Of a DNA stretch of 64,000 bases, positions 3,380 to 43,293 are shown one piece after another. A program made the position numbers and the translations under genes. A model generated the notes under the pieces. The model saw only the letters and a list, made by a program, of their open reading frames with translations. It made no database searches and was not told where the DNA came from. The stretch is from Chromatiaceae bacterium. GTDB taxonomy: Bacteria; Pseudomonadota; Gammaproteobacteria; Chromatiales; Chromatiaceae. Location of the stretch: NCBI GenBank assembly GCA_022340805.1, contig JAJDNF010000034.1:1-64000 (forward strand), in the 5' to 3' direction. Numbering within the stretch: the stretch's first letter is position 1; each line of letters opens with the position of its first letter.

Positions 3380-4960
3380 TTACAGTTCGCGGGTGGCCAG
3401 GAATTTCACCTCCGGCCAGCGCTCGATGGTGAGATTGAGATTGACTCTTGTCGGTGCCAGATAGACGAGTTGGCCGTCGCCGTCCTCGGCCAGGTTGTCA
3501 TAGGCCTTGTCGCGAAAGCGCTTGAGTTCCTTTTCGTCTTTGCAGACGACCCAGCGCGCTGCCTGCACACCGACCGGCTCGACGATCGCGTCCACACCGT
3601 ATTCGCCTTTCAAGCGATGCGCAGCCACATCGAACTGCAGGACCCCGACTGCGCCGAGGACCAGGTCATTGTTGCGCAACGGACGGAAGACCTGCGTGGC
3701 CCCCTCCTCACCGAGCTGCACGACGCCTTTCTGCAGCTGTTTCGTCTTCATCGGGTCTTTCAGGACGACCCGGCGGAACAGCTCGGGCGCGAAGTACGGG
3801 ATCCCGGTGTACTTGAGCTCCTCACCCTCGGTGAAGGTATCGCCAATCTGGATCGTACCGTGGTTGTGCAAGCCGATGATATCGCCCGGCCAGGCCTCGT
3901 CGACGTGCAGACGCTCATCCGCCTGGAAGGTGATCGCGTTGGCGATCTGCACCGTCTTGCCGATGCGCACGTGTTTCATTTTCATGCCCTTCTGGTAGCT
4001 GCCTGAGCAGACGCGTAGAAAGGCCACACGGTCGCGGTGCGCCGGATCCATGTTTGCCTGGATCTTGAACACGAAACCGGTGAACTTTGACTCACCCGGA
4101 TCTACGACCCGCTGCTCGGTCTCGCGCGGGCGCGGCGGAGGCGCATATTCAGAGAAGGCATCGAGCAGTTCCTCGACGCCGAAGTTGTTGATCGCCGAGC
4201 CGAAGAATACCGGCGTCTGCTCGCCGCGTCGATACGCGTCCAGGTTGAATTCGTGGCTGGCGCCGCGCACCAGTTCCACCTCGTCACGGAGTTCCTGGGC
4301 CTGGTCGCCGAGCATCTGGTCGAGGCGCGGATTGTCCAGCCCTTGGATGCGCTCGCCGGTCACGATGCGGCCGCCGTGCTGCGGGTCCAGCAAATGCACC
4401 GTGTTGTCGCGCAGGTCGAGCACGCCCTTGAGGCGCTTGCCCATACCGATCGGCCAAGTGATCGGTGCACATTGGATCTTGAGGACCTGTTCCACTTCGT
4501 CCAGTAGCTCGACCGGGTCGCGACCCTCGCGGTCGAGTTTGTTGATGAAGGTGATGATCGGAGTGTCGCGCAGACGGCAAACCTCCATCAGCTTGATGGT
4601 GCGTTCCTCGACGCCCTTGGCGACATCGATCACCATCAGCGCCGAGTCGACCGCAGTGAGGGTTCGATAGGTGTCCTCGGAGAAATCCTCGTGGCCAGGG
4701 GTATCGAGCAGGTTCATGACCTTGCCCTTATAGGGGAACTGCATCACCGACGAGGTCACCGAGATACCGCGCTGCTTCTCCAGTTCCATCCAGTCCGAGG
4801 TCGCATGGCGTGCGGCTTTGCGCCCTTTCACGGTACCAGCAAGCTGGATCGCCCCGCCGAACAGCAGCAGCTTCTCGGTCAGGGTCGTCTTGCCCGCGTC
4901 CGGATGCGATATGATCGCGAAGGTACGGCGTTTTGCGCGTTCTTTGTCGAGGTCGGCCAT
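3380..4960 (-). CDS. prfC: peptide chain release factor 3
   Basis: A 526-residue translational GTPase, close to the 529 residues of E. coli RF3. The G1 motif SHPDAGKTT is at residues 18-26, followed by DTPGH (G3) and NKLD (G4), then the RF3-type domains II and III. RF3 recycles RF1/RF2 from the ribosome after peptide release, using GTP. Full-length and intact. The GAGKTT-type P-loop with aspartate (DAGKTT) is typical of RF3 and EF-G. Confidence 0.97.
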
Positions 4961-40018: not shown

Positions 40019-41524
40019 ATGGTAGACGCTCCATCAGCCCAACCCAAACCCGGCCTGTTCAGGACCCCCGGCGCCGCCGTCGCACGCCACCCGGGAGTCA
40101 TGCTTGCGCCGCGCGCGTTGCGCCAGTGGATCGATGCGCTGCCGCTCGGCAACCCACCCAGGGCGGCGCAGATGCTGTTGCAGCAGTTGCGCCTGCTGGT
40201 ACGTGACCCACAGCCGGGCGCGCGCCTCGGCGCTCTGCTGGACCTGTACGATGTCCCTGGAGGTCAACTGCTGGAGATCGTCAACGAGCGCCTGCAGACC
40301 AACCAGGAGGGTGCCGTCCCGCTCGACCAGTTGGAACACAGCATGCTCGAGCTGCTCACCGAACTCGCGTATGGCCGGCTGCGCCAGGCCAACGAGGCAC
40401 TGGCCGGCGGCAAATCGCCGGCGACCGCGACCCTGTATCAGGCCATGCGCCTGCTCGACGGAGTCCAGAACATCGAGCGACTACACTACTACACGCTCGA
40501 TCCCGGCAACTGGCAGCTGCTGCTGGGCATCTATCTGCATGCCGCAGCGCAGGATGTCGCCGATCAGCCAGTCGACCGTGCCCTGCTGCGCAGCGGTGAC
40601 GAGCCGGACACGGTCCAGGGCCTGTTCTTCCGCGCACTGGTGCTGCAACTTTGCGATCCACATCAGCACCGCCCCGAGCAGATGCTGAGCTGGCACCACT
40701 GGGCCGGTGAGCATGCCAATCTGCTCGAGTTGACGATCCTGCCCCAGGGGCCGTTCGCGATTCCGCTGGATATCAGCGGACAACTCCCGCCACTGGCCGC
40801 GGCGCGGCGCGGCAAACCCGGTCCGGATATGCGCTATCTGGCCGCCGAAAGGTTCCTGCAGCAGCTGCAGGATGACCCGACCGCGCCACAAGATCTGCAG
40901 CGCACGCTGCATGAATTGATCAAGGGCCGTAAGGCGTCCGAACAGCGCCAGGGGCCCCGTCAGCCGCGCAACCATCGCTACGGTCTGATGAATGGCTTGC
41001 GCAATATCCACGCCCGGCTCGAATCGCTGATCCAGGGTGCCGAACAGCACGACCAGGATCTCGCCCAGGTGCCGTGCCTGCTCGTGAATCAGTCCAGGTC
41101 CGGGGCCGCCTTGCAGGTGCAGGGACCCTTGAGCCCCCCACTGACCGTCGGCGAGGTGCTGTTGATAGAAGCACAGACGCCTGCGCCAGGCGGCGCGGCG
41201 GTCGGTTTCGCCGCGTGTATCCGGCGACTGGTGAACGGCGCCGATCACCAGATCGAGATCGGGGTGGAGAAACTCGCCGGGCGGGTTATCCCGGTCGAGA
41301 TTACCGGTAGCGCAGCTCAGCGCGGGCGCGGCGAGACGCGTGCCCTGCTGCAGCAGGACGTAGAGGCCGGTCGCCATACCTTGTTCGCACCGCGCAGCTT
41401 CTATCGCGAGGGCGACTCCCTGGTCGCCGAGAGCGCCCATGCACGACACGGCCTGCGCATGCAGGAACTGCTGGAGGTCGTGCAACACACCGCCATCATC
41501 GCCGTCGAACCCGAAGACGCCTAG
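40019..41524 (+). CDS. conserved protein with C-terminal PilZ-like domain
   Basis: 501 residues, cytosolic. A long alpha-helical N-terminal part (about 1-340; e.g. ALRQWIDALPLGNPPRAAQML) precedes a beta-rich segment (about 345-430) with NQSRSGAALQV, VGEVLLIE and a final GVEKLAGRVIPVEI. These strands resemble a PilZ barrel, though the classic RxxxR is not clear. Proteins of this build in related bacteria are often annotated as c-di-GMP binding; this is tentative. The stop codon TAG is completed by the junction with the IS element and would also be TAG without it. Confidence 0.55.
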   Translation: MVDAPSAQPKPGLFRTPGAAVARHPGVMLAPRALRQWIDALPLGNPPRAAQMLLQQLRLLVRDPQPGARLGALLDLYDVPGGQLLEIVNERLQTNQEGAVPLDQLEHSMLELLTELAYGRLRQANEALAGGKSPATATLYQAMRLLDGVQNIERLHYYTLDPGNWQLLLGIYLHAAAQDVADQPVDRALLRSGDEPDTVQGLFFRALVLQLCDPHQHRPEQMLSWHHWAGEHANLLELTILPQGPFAIPLDISGQLPPLAAARRGKPGPDMRYLAAERFLQQLQDDPTAPQDLQRTLHELIKGRKASEQRQGPRQPRNHRYGLMNGLRNIHARLESLIQGAEQHDQDLAQVPCLLVNQSRSGAALQVQGPLSPPLTVGEVLLIEAQTPAPGGAAVGFAACIRRLVNGADHQIEIGVEKLAGRVIPVEITGSAAQRGRGETRALLQQDVEAGRHTLFAPRSFYREGDSLVAESAHARHGLRMQELLEVVQHTAIIAVEPEDA

Positions 41525-41529
41525 ACATG

Positions 41530-41542
41530 ATGTTTTGACCTG
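41530..41542. repeat. IS left subterminal inverted repeat
   Basis: ATGTTTTGACCTG, perfect inverse of 43115-43127. It begins six bases after the end of the upstream stop codon. Confidence 0.85.
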
Positions 41543-41613
41543 CCCAGCCTCAACGCACGTGGGTTATGTTGAGGTTGGACACATCACACAGAGCCACATT
41601 GAGGGGGCAGGTC

Positions 41614-42816
41614 ATGAAACAGGATATCGCAAAAGAGATCAGTCGGCAGACGGCATCGGCTCTGGACAGGGCGGCGGGTTGGAGCGGCTATGCGGCGTTT
41701 GTCGGCTTGGATGTGCACAAGGACATGATCGCGGTAGCGGTAGCGCTACCGGGCCGCGGTACGCCGGAATACCGGGGTGAAATCGTGCACGAGCCGAAGG
41801 TGGTCCGGAAATGGCTGGATCAACTGAGCAGGGAGTTTGACGGTGTCATGCTGTTGTTCTGTTACGAGGCGGGTCCGTGCGGTTATGGACTGTACCGCCA
41901 GTTGCTCGAGGCTGGCCATGCGTGCCAGGTGGTGGCACCGTCGCTGATTCCGAAGAAGCCGGGCGAGCGGATCAAGACCGACCGGCGGGATGCGCTGAAG
42001 CTGGCGCGGTTGTTACGCGCAGGTGATCTGACCGCGGTGTGGGTACCGGATACCGAGCAGGAGGCGATGCGCGATCTGACCCGCGCCCGGGATGACATGA
42101 AGAGCCAGGAGCGCAAGGCGCGTCAGCAGTTGAACGCTTTCTTGCTGCGTCGGGGACATCACTGGCCGTCGGGTAAAAAGCGTTGGACGAAGATTCATTT
42201 CAGCTGGTTGGAATCGATCCCGTTCGAACAACCCTGGTTGCAGATTGTGCTGCAGGAGTACATCGGCGCCGTGAAGGCGGCGACGCAGCGCGTCGACGAT
42301 CTGACCGATCAGCTGATGCAGGCCTTGCCGGGCTGGTCGCTGGCGCCAGTGGTGGATTCGCTGGTGGCCTTGCGTGGCATCGACAAGCTGGCCGCCACGG
42401 TGCTGTTGGCTGAGCTGGGTGATATCAGCCGTTTCGACTCACCGAAACAGTTGATGGCCTATCTGGGGCTGGTGCCCAGTGAGCATTCCACGGGATCACG
42501 CCGACGCCAGGGGGCGATCACCCTGACCGGCAACGGCCACGCACGACGGATGCTCGTCGAGTGTGCCTGGAGCTACCGTTTTCCGGCACGCCAGACGATG
42601 CATCTTAAGCGCAAGGCCGAAACAGCCTCGCCTGAGGCCAAGGCGATTGCCTGGCGGGCACAGAAGCGTCTGTGCGGACGTTATCGTCAGCTCACTCAGG
42701 CTGGTAAGAATATCAAGCTGGTGTGCGTCGCCATCGCGCGCGAGCTGGTGGGCTTTCTCTGGGACATCGTCCGCCATGAGATGCCGAATCTTCAGGGCCA
42801 GGCCACGCGCGTCTGA
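41614..42816 (+). CDS. IS110-family DEDD transposase
   Basis: 400 residues from ATG 41614, preceded by AGGGGG; an in-frame start at 41566 would run into the left end structures. The RuvC-like N-terminal domain has Asp33 (GLDVHKD), Glu85 (CYEAG) and Asp123/Asp126 (KTDRRDA). The C-terminal Transposase_20 domain has LRGIDKLAATVLLAELGD and YLGLVPSEHSTGS with the conserved serine. It is a site-specific recombinase guided, in studied relatives, by an RNA from the element. Intact, so the element may be active. Confidence 0.95.
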   Translation: MKQDIAKEISRQTASALDRAAGWSGYAAFVGLDVHKDMIAVAVALPGRGTPEYRGEIVHEPKVVRKWLDQLSREFDGVMLLFCYEAGPCGYGLYRQLLEAGHACQVVAPSLIPKKPGERIKTDRRDALKLARLLRAGDLTAVWVPDTEQEAMRDLTRARDDMKSQERKARQQLNAFLLRRGHHWPSGKKRWTKIHFSWLESIPFEQPWLQIVLQEYIGAVKAATQRVDDLTDQLMQALPGWSLAPVVDSLVALRGIDKLAATVLLAELGDISRFDSPKQLMAYLGLVPSEHSTGSRRRQGAITLTGNGHARRMLVECAWSYRFPARQTMHLKRKAETASPEAKAIAWRAQKRLCGRYRQLTQAGKNIKLVCVAIARELVGFLWDIVRHEMPNLQGQATRV

Positions 42817-43114
42817 CCAGGCCACCCCTGTAACGAGATAGCAAAGGAGAAACGACAGGCACCTTGACTCAGGATCTATCTGGCCGGTGTGGAGAACCCT
42901 TGGGCGGGCTACACCGGCATCGGCCAACGGGATAACCTCAACTGAGCATCCCCGGTCGATGATCCCTGACCCTAGAGAAAGGCCAGCTCCGCGACGTAGT
43001 GAAGTCCGGTGGTAACCAATCCACGTATATCAGCATGATCCACCGTCGCAATCTGCTGGATAGGTCCTGAGCCAAGGTGCTTGAATGGAGACATGAGATG
43101 AATCAACCACTTGA
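42817..43114 (+). ncRNA. candidate bridge RNA in the 3' noncoding tail of the IS
   Basis: About 300 bp with no gene, after the transposase. Hairpin GCCGGTGT (42883-42890) / ACACCGGC (42911-42918) encloses a 20-base loop that can pair again through CCC/GGG, leaving an internal loop. Its 3' side GCGGGCTA (42904-42911) is the reverse complement of TAGCCCGC at the insertion site. A second hairpin CGGTGG (43007-43012) / CCACCG (43040-43045) encloses 27 bases. Two stem-loops with internal guides fit the bridge-RNA plan, and a 3' location fits the IS1111 group. No expression evidence. Confidence 0.5.
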
Positions 43115-43127
43115 CAGGTCAAAACAT
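43115..43127. repeat. IS right subterminal inverted repeat
   Basis: CAGGTCAAAACAT, perfect inverse of the left copy; the three bases ATC separate it from the palindromic repeat. Confidence 0.85.
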
Positions 43128-43130
43128 ATC

Positions 43131-43293
43131 AGCCCGCATCTGTCACCGGCATCACGGATGCCGGCGGATTTCGCAGCCGGTCCGGCGCCGGGCTGGAGCG
43201 CAAGTGGTAGCTGTAGCTACCACATGAGTGAAGACCAAGCCGGCGCGAGCGAGAAACCGCCAGGACCGGGATAGGCAGGCAGATGCGGGCTAG
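43131..43293. repeat. MITE/REP-like palindromic repeat, copy B, interrupted by the IS
   Basis: Its right terminus CAGATGCGGGCTAG (43280-43293) is a perfect 14-bp inverse of the left terminus CTAGCCCGCATCTG, whose first bases (41521-41522) are now on the far side of the IS. Inside are a hairpin CCGGCATC-ACG-GATGCCGG (43146-43164) and a 63-bp segment (43181-43243), bounded by AGCCGG repeats and absent from copy A. That segment contains GTGGTAGCT-GT-AGCTACCAC (43204-43223). Its terminal CTAG supplies stop codons to both flanking convergent genes. Confidence 0.8.

Follow-up and report, generated by a model that had tools for sequence, protein, structure and literature searches.

An IS110-family element of a Chromatiaceae bacterium carries, in the noncoding tail downstream of its transposase gene, a predicted bridge RNA (seekRNA) whose putative guides vary together with the DNA that flanks the element. 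The element lies in the window, the term used here for the whole stretch of 64,000 nucleotides that was analysed. Very probably it moves as a complex of recombinase and RNA, in which the tail RNA guides recognition of both target and donor. By comparison of relatives, the RNA structure is conserved and the guides covary with the flanks and, in part, with the element ends. Transcription, processing, binding by the protein and strand exchange would follow what is known of the family. The features of the element and its surroundings are listed below.

41523-43130, + strand: IS110-family element with IS1111-type ends, 1608 bp, delimited by inverted repeats and comparison with relatives
41523-41542, + strand: left end, with a 7-bp extension AGACATG (AG is the core), then the left subterminal repeat ATGTTTTGACCTG at 41530-41542
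41614-42816, + strand: DEDD transposase/recombinase of 400 aa, by Pfam and NCBIfam matches
about 42856-43083, + strand: predicted bridge RNA/seekRNA, with P1 (42856-42882 with 43057-43083) as closing stem, by minimum free energy (MFE) and two-sided changes
42891-42990, + strand: predicted target-binding loop closed by P2 (42891-42894 with 42987-42990; 42898-42901 with 42979-42982)
42904-42911, + strand: putative right target guide GCGGGCTA, complementary to the target top strand TAGCCCGC, by covariation with the right flank
42918-42961, + strand: predicted P3 hairpin, between both target guides, with two-sided changes in six of eight outer pairs (15 RNAs)
42971-42975, + strand: putative left target guide CCTAG, of the same sense as left flank CCT plus core AG, by agreement with the left flank
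42991-43049, + strand: predicted donor module of P4 (42991-42996 with 43044-43049) and P5 (43009-43012 with 43021-43024)
43003-43006, + strand: candidate right donor guide AGTC, for pairing with the left-end sequence GAC(A/C), by one position and two single compensations
43027-43033, + strand: putative left donor guide ATATCAG, identical to right end ATATC plus core AG, by covariation with the right end
43111-43130, + strand: right end, with TTGACA at 43111-43116, the right subterminal repeat CAGGTCAAAACAT at 43115-43127 and a 3-bp extension ATC
43131-43292, no strand assigned: remainder of the target that the element interrupts, an inverted-end repeat with outer end TAGCCCGCATCTG (its T is base 41522)

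By the features tested, the element is of the RNA-guided IS110/IS1111 kind. The transposase combines the DEDD and Transposase_20 domains of the IS110 family: it scores above the cut-offs of both PF01548 and PF02371 and matches NF033542, the NCBIfam IS110 model, with 266 bits (cut-off 140); its sequence match to the solved IS621 and ISCro4 proteins is weak. The catalytic residues D33, E85, D123 and D126 are kept in 46-47 of 47 elements, and the motif GL-P----S(T)G is present as GLVPSEHSTG (residues 285-294). At the S(T)G position, residue 293, the window protein has Thr; among the 47 elements there are 44 Ser, two Thr and one Gly. An alternative upstream ATG at 41566 would give a transposase of 416 aa. 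The subterminal repeats are 13 bp in length (41530-41542 and 43115-43127), within the 11-13 bp of the IS1111 group, the extensions of 7 bp on the left and 3 bp on the right follow the pattern of that group, and the noncoding region 3′ of the gene (42817-43130) is long, as the group requires. Repeats of the 13-bp type with 7-bp and 3-bp extensions are given as the mark of the IS1111 group in the part of PMC11187229 used here. The ends and tail are of IS1111 type, but the transposase is longer than reported for the group, and the IS1111 subgroup name is therefore provisional. The genome assembly (3.49 Mb, 98 contigs, 89.9% complete) holds a single copy by DNA match, and neither DNA search nor a search with the RNA covariance model found further copies in it.

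Removal of the element rebuilds GACGCCT/AGCCCGC, where T41522 is joined to the AGCCCGC that starts at 43131. The original prediction was that a loop in the 3′ tail holds the complement of this junction, and the match is exact: GCGGGCTA at 42904-42911 is complementary to TAGCCCGC. It was also cautioned that an 8-base match may occur by chance. In the window alone, the longest complement that spans the junction is 8 nt, and of 3000 tails shuffled by dinucleotide, 34 contained one at least as long. The caution was thus justified, and it is the relatives that decide. Species genomes were scanned and yielded 80 related loci; L003 and the window bring the set to 82. A script located both ends in 58 of these and a recognisable loop in 61. 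The right-guide test covers 47 of the 82 loci (the window and 46 relatives), 35 having been dropped for want of both ends, the loop motif or six flank bases. L051, L053 and others have no exact loop motif and therefore stand outside this test; some of them are detected by the RNA model.

In relatives, the consensus of the loop is GAGAACCCTyG-NNNNNN-CTA. Its six variable bases were compared with the six bases to the right of the AG core in one fixed register, the registers of this and the other comparisons having been picked after inspection of some of the same loci. In the 47 elements, 198 of 282 positions form Watson-Crick pairs, while 20000 shufflings of the flanks gave a mean of 83.4 and a maximum of 123. 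When each of the 39 distinct guides is represented by one element, there are 163 pairs in 234 positions vs 68.8 with shuffled flanks (at most 102). Pairing at +1 to +6 is found in 44, 42, 45, 38, 17 and 12 of the 47, the expected values being 14.3, 15.6, 16.7, 12.9, 11.0 and 13.0. Accordingly, the signal sits in the four bases past the core, and the fifth contributes a little. Fewer than three of the first four guide positions pair in L054, L084, L090 and L094. Comparison of the loop with the insertion sites of other copies, proposed in the original prediction as a check, thus finds that guide and site change together. The covariation of the guide counterpart with the real right flank across the 47 elements supports the bridge RNA hypothesis, and the stretch 42904-42911 behaves as a right target guide would.

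On the left side of the core, agreement is in the opposite sense. An RNA stretch nnnYTAGA sits 3′ of the P3 hairpin, and the bases before its TAG match the left flank in sense. Among 52 elements, guide position -2 agrees with the flank in 45 (expected 21.8, reached in 0 of 20000 shuffles) and position -3 in 26 (expected 13.3, reached in 3 of 20000 shuffles); positions -4 to -6 are at background level in these 52. Position -1 is T in nearly all elements and is therefore uninformative. In the window, CCTAG of the RNA corresponds to the flank ...GCCTAG. Left and right guides together give a predicted target CCT-AG-CCCGC. The right guide comes before the left guide, which is the order given for IS1111-type seekRNAs (PMC11187229, in the part used).

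The proposed RNA secondary structure displays conserved properties. A single-sequence fold of 42855-43085 has an MFE of -106.6 kcal/mol (z -6.33), and none of 200 shuffles is as low. In 15 near relatives, 18 of the 26 pairs of P1 have two-sided changes and 90.4% of cells are paired. RNAalifold on 15 relatives pairs GGAG and CCTT with AAGG and CTCC. Stems P2, P4 and P5 together are 98.2% paired in 52 RNAs (most of the 15 among them) and have nine two-sided pairs vs 3.5 in shuffles; moving the partner strand by one to three columns lowers the pairing to 35-48%. In 56 RNAs, these stems are 98.1% paired, again with nine two-sided pairs (3.4 in shuffles). There is one loop inside P2, with the right guide on its 5′ side, P3 at the tip and the left guide on its 3′ side. 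P1 and P3 align less well in the wider set, where the whole window structure has 68.0% of cells paired and its two-sided pair count is reached by 101 of 500 shuffles.

Two stem-loops had been drawn in the tail at the outset. The first (42883-42918) does read GCCGGTGT...ACACCGGC, but the stem so drawn is absent from the conserved helices. As a candidate guide stem, 42884-42890/42911-42917 is paired in 83.8% of cells in the 15 near relatives with zero two-sided changes. Over 52 RNAs, it is 39.6% paired, a percentage that 16 of 500 shuffles also attain; 92 of 500 attain its covariation score. It was rejected. The second (43007-43045) reads CGGTGG...CCACCG as described, but is really part of the two-helix module formed by P4 and P5.

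A covariance model built from 56 RNAs was searched in 369 genomes of the class and matched in 21, the genome of the window among them. The search gave 30 loci, of which one is the window, 11 were judged and 18 were left unjudged. All of positions +1 to +4 pair, wobble allowed, in eight of the 11 judged (L136, L137, L145, L147, L157, L160, L163 and L165; L147, L157 and L165 were scored by eye). L142 pairs at three positions; the remaining two, L138 and the inner right end of L140, do not fit. Genome G378 has four transposase-bearing copies with one common guide, TTTGGGTTA. The right ends of L157 and L165 adjoin AACCCGAA, that of L163 adjoins AGCCCGGA and the outer one of L140 adjoins AACCCGCA. 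The outermost right ends are thus followed by A[AG]CCCG in four of four copies (partly by eye). The original prediction named two findings that would speak against it, the same loop at unrelated sites and no conserved structure in relatives. For the most part, neither is seen: the structure is conserved and the G378 copies fit at their outermost right ends, but L138, the inner right end of L140 and the four elements with poorly pairing right guides (L054, L084, L090 and L094) do not fit their guides.

The donor-guide test covers 54 elements. At the last two right-end bases before the core, RNA and end match in 53 and 54 of the 54 (expected 32 and 33); where the end base is a variant one, 14 of 15 and 14 of 14 elements still agree. 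The base that precedes these two agrees in 41 of 54 overall and in only two of 14 variants, and thus displays no covariation. Covariation with the right end at two positions supports ATATCAG as a putative left donor guide. Most donor variants are of one related group in which GAG replaces ATC. L041 is a separate variant, with AAC in both the RNA and the right end, and L036 and L059 look likewise by eye. For the candidate right donor guide, 16 of 16 variants pair at one position and L034 and L035 each have a compensating change; L067, L092, L074, L090, L096 and L098 do not fit. The guides that could not be placed at the outset, the left target guide and the donor guides, are now proposed, with weaker support for the right donor guide.

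It is possible, although rather unlikely, that the element is RNA-guided and that the target guides alone matter, the protein recognizing the ends by way of the subterminal repeats and the ATATCAG of the RNA having some other cause. Siddiquee et al. (PMC11187229, in the part used) describe a 70-100 nt seekRNA with target matches as sufficient for ISEc11, and the donor covariation consists of few independent changes, the right donor guide being weak. However, the agreement of the last two right-end bases holds among the variants as well as overall, and the change in L041 is an unrelated one, with similar changes by eye in L036 and L059. Two published accounts disagree on the presence of donor guides in IS1111-type RNAs, and the ATATC covariation makes the question directly testable.

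The target of the window element is itself a repeat. In the same genome, the outer end TAGCCCGCATCTG is found 22 times with at most one mismatch (reversed control, three times), and six units of 163-260 bp, the one in the window among them, have such ends inverted. Uninterrupted copies of the repeat elsewhere in this genome serve as empty sites. Locus L105 in genome G001, at the same intergenic place, was rejected as an exact empty site; the repeat copy there is in the other orientation. Sequence 43131-43292 and loci L114-L135 represent an interspersed 163-260 bp repeat of the genome, with inverted ends TAGCCCGCATCYG. The insertion point (41522-41524) is inside the TAG stop of a 501-aa frame, and TAG is preserved with or without the element. 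No match to PF13701 (IS1380-type transposase) was found in the genome of the window. In G378, TARCCCGRATRTTTCA is present 145 times (control, 0 times), in inverted pairs about 150 bp apart plus two pairs about 1.56 kb apart. The 1.56-kb pairs enclose IS1380-type transposase genes (PF13701) at 1619501-1620769 and 3194377-3195646. This G378 terminal repeat is common to IS1380-type elements and the units of about 150 bp.

Among 49 loci, each with at least 1200 bases of right flank, an inverted partner (at least 13 of 16 within 2.4 kb) is found at 11 right flanks, the window included and two being on one contig, vs 3 of 490 controls. Thus, landing on the ends of transposable elements is frequent but not universal. 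By Pfam, open reading frames to the right of targets match PF13701 in two of 50 (L022; the other was taken as L025), and a few match other transposase models, among the matches listed (25 of 71 families). The 48 to the left of targets gave one DDE_Tnp_IS240, among the matches listed (25 of 49 families), and a phage search gave one partial match. The lineage may be one of RNA-guided elements that live largely on other transposable elements. One RNA would specify both the ends of its element and the target, and the target guide would be rewritten repeatedly, in many cases to fit the terminal repeats of IS1380-family members, of other insertion sequences and of derived short repeats, which give many near-identical sites. 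The chances of this appear to be even. Such a target habit would point to the ends of other mobile elements as a route to many safe landing sites for an RNA-guided element.

The target in the window forms one arm of a unit with inverted ends, and an inverted partner exists for 11 of 49 right flanks. This might suggest that a folded target, the palindrome of the repeat, is recognized, as proposed for attC- or REP-targeting relatives, the linear match being secondary. This is quite improbable: by the same threshold, 38 of the 49 flanks lack a partner, and 43 of 47 elements nevertheless keep the guide register.

Relatives with similar transposases bear on whether the protein alone reads the target. 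When flanks were shuffled only inside clusters of at least 70% identical transposases, the 136 pairs observed in 148 positions (+1 to +4) were reached in 0 of 5000 shuffles (mean 95.1, maximum 116). Fifty-two pairs of elements are at least 75% identical and have two or more of the four guide positions changed. In 51 of these pairs, the own targets fit better than those of the partner, and one pair is tied; since members recur among the pairs, they are not 52 separate events. L056 and L057, with transposases 91% identical, fit their own targets at 8 of 8 positions and the crossed ones at 2 of 8. For L030 and L032 (95% identical), the own fit is 8 vs 4 when crossed. Choice of site by the protein exists in some IS families, and the tail is GC-rich and folds well. 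The tail RNA might then be a regulatory leader, terminator or attenuator, and the guide-target agreement might come from shared descent. However, near-identical transposases with different guides, as in these two pairs, occupy correspondingly different sites, and a search of Rfam at gathering scores gave 0 matches in the window, and no regulatory family; such an explanation is thus very improbable. Hardly credible at all is a likeness of guide and flank due to capture of flanking DNA, or to a common origin in a repeat, without RNA-DNA pairing, since, although targets are repeats here and in some relatives, the match is limited to a fixed 4-5 nt register by the core with background at +6, and the left guide, of opposite sense, has a fixed place of matching of its own.

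The preferred reading, a recombinase-RNA complex guided by the tail RNA, suggests the following course of events. The 3′ tail would be transcribed, probably from a promoter formed when the ends join in a circle. In the family, gene and RNA are both transcribed from a circular form, whose joined ends make up a promoter (PMC11187229, PMC11208160, each as far as used here). The joined ends of the window element give the promoter-like sequence TTGACA-17-CATGAT. Sequences with two or fewer mismatches to TTGACA-N16-18-TATAAT are formed by the joined ends of 32 of 52 elements, vs 0 of 52 for either end in place. The tail transcript would fold into a single RNA with two loops. In the first, GCGGGCTA may pair with the top strand of the target, from the AG core to the right, and CCTAG with the left part of the bottom strand. 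The second would bring ATATCAG, and perhaps also AGTC, into pairing with the ends of the element in their joined state. By analogy with the family, strands would be exchanged at the AG core by the DEDD recombinase. In the window, the target used would be CCT-AG-CCCGC at the outer end of the interspersed inverted-end repeat.

The IS1111-type seekRNAs of ISEc11, ISPa11, ISKpn4 and ISPst6, in the part of PMC11187229 that was used, resemble the window system in the tail 3′ of the gene, the 13-bp repeats and 7/3-bp extensions, the top-strand complement that precedes a bottom-strand match, the S(T)G motif and the promoter-like circle junction. They differ in transposase length, 330-350 aa vs about 400 aa in the window element, and in RNA length, which is 70-100 nt with long forms of 145-170 nt, whereas the window RNA is predicted to be about 228 nt and has a covarying putative donor guide. 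IS621/IS110 bridge RNAs, as presented in the part of PMC11208160 used, are alike in having two loops, left and right guides for the target and, as proposed for the window RNA, for the donor, and a core common to all guides. The IS621 RNA is at the left end with its left guide first, whereas the window RNA is at the right end with its right guide first. The same source, in part, predicts a bridge RNA in the right end of 93% of IS1111s, with donor bases often in a multiloop.

The transposases of ISSso6 (known here by its annotation name) and of an Escherichia coli copy, L102, are 47.0% and 49.6% identical to that of the window, and the RNA model matches L102 at E 7e-6. IS4321 and IS5075 insert in the ends of Tn21-family transposons. 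They are likewise IS110-family elements that use the ends of other transposons, but the identity to the window transposase is 24.4% over 74% of the protein for IS5075. IS5075 was rejected as a carrier of the same RNA: its locus L166 gives no match to the RNA model, even with a cut-off of E 10, and by this measure the RNA of the window differs from that of IS5075. A description of this clade was not found in the open-licence papers searched. The clade appears to provide a natural series of reprogrammed right-end bridge RNAs, with 39 distinct guides and all four guide positions proposed.

Some relatives show irregular arrangements of the RNA gene. L140 (G378:C1:28550-28994) has tandem RNA copies, and its inner right end is joined to AG/AATCC of the second RNA gene. 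In L038, the donor module of the RNA model matches a second time, in part, at 3935-3988, behind the first RNA. In L029, at about 3739-3900, the RNA gene ends right after its own ATATCAG and is followed by CCCGG, which fits the guide TTCGGGCTA. Perhaps the donor-guide stretch of the RNA gene served as a false right end in this one case from a metagenome assembly.
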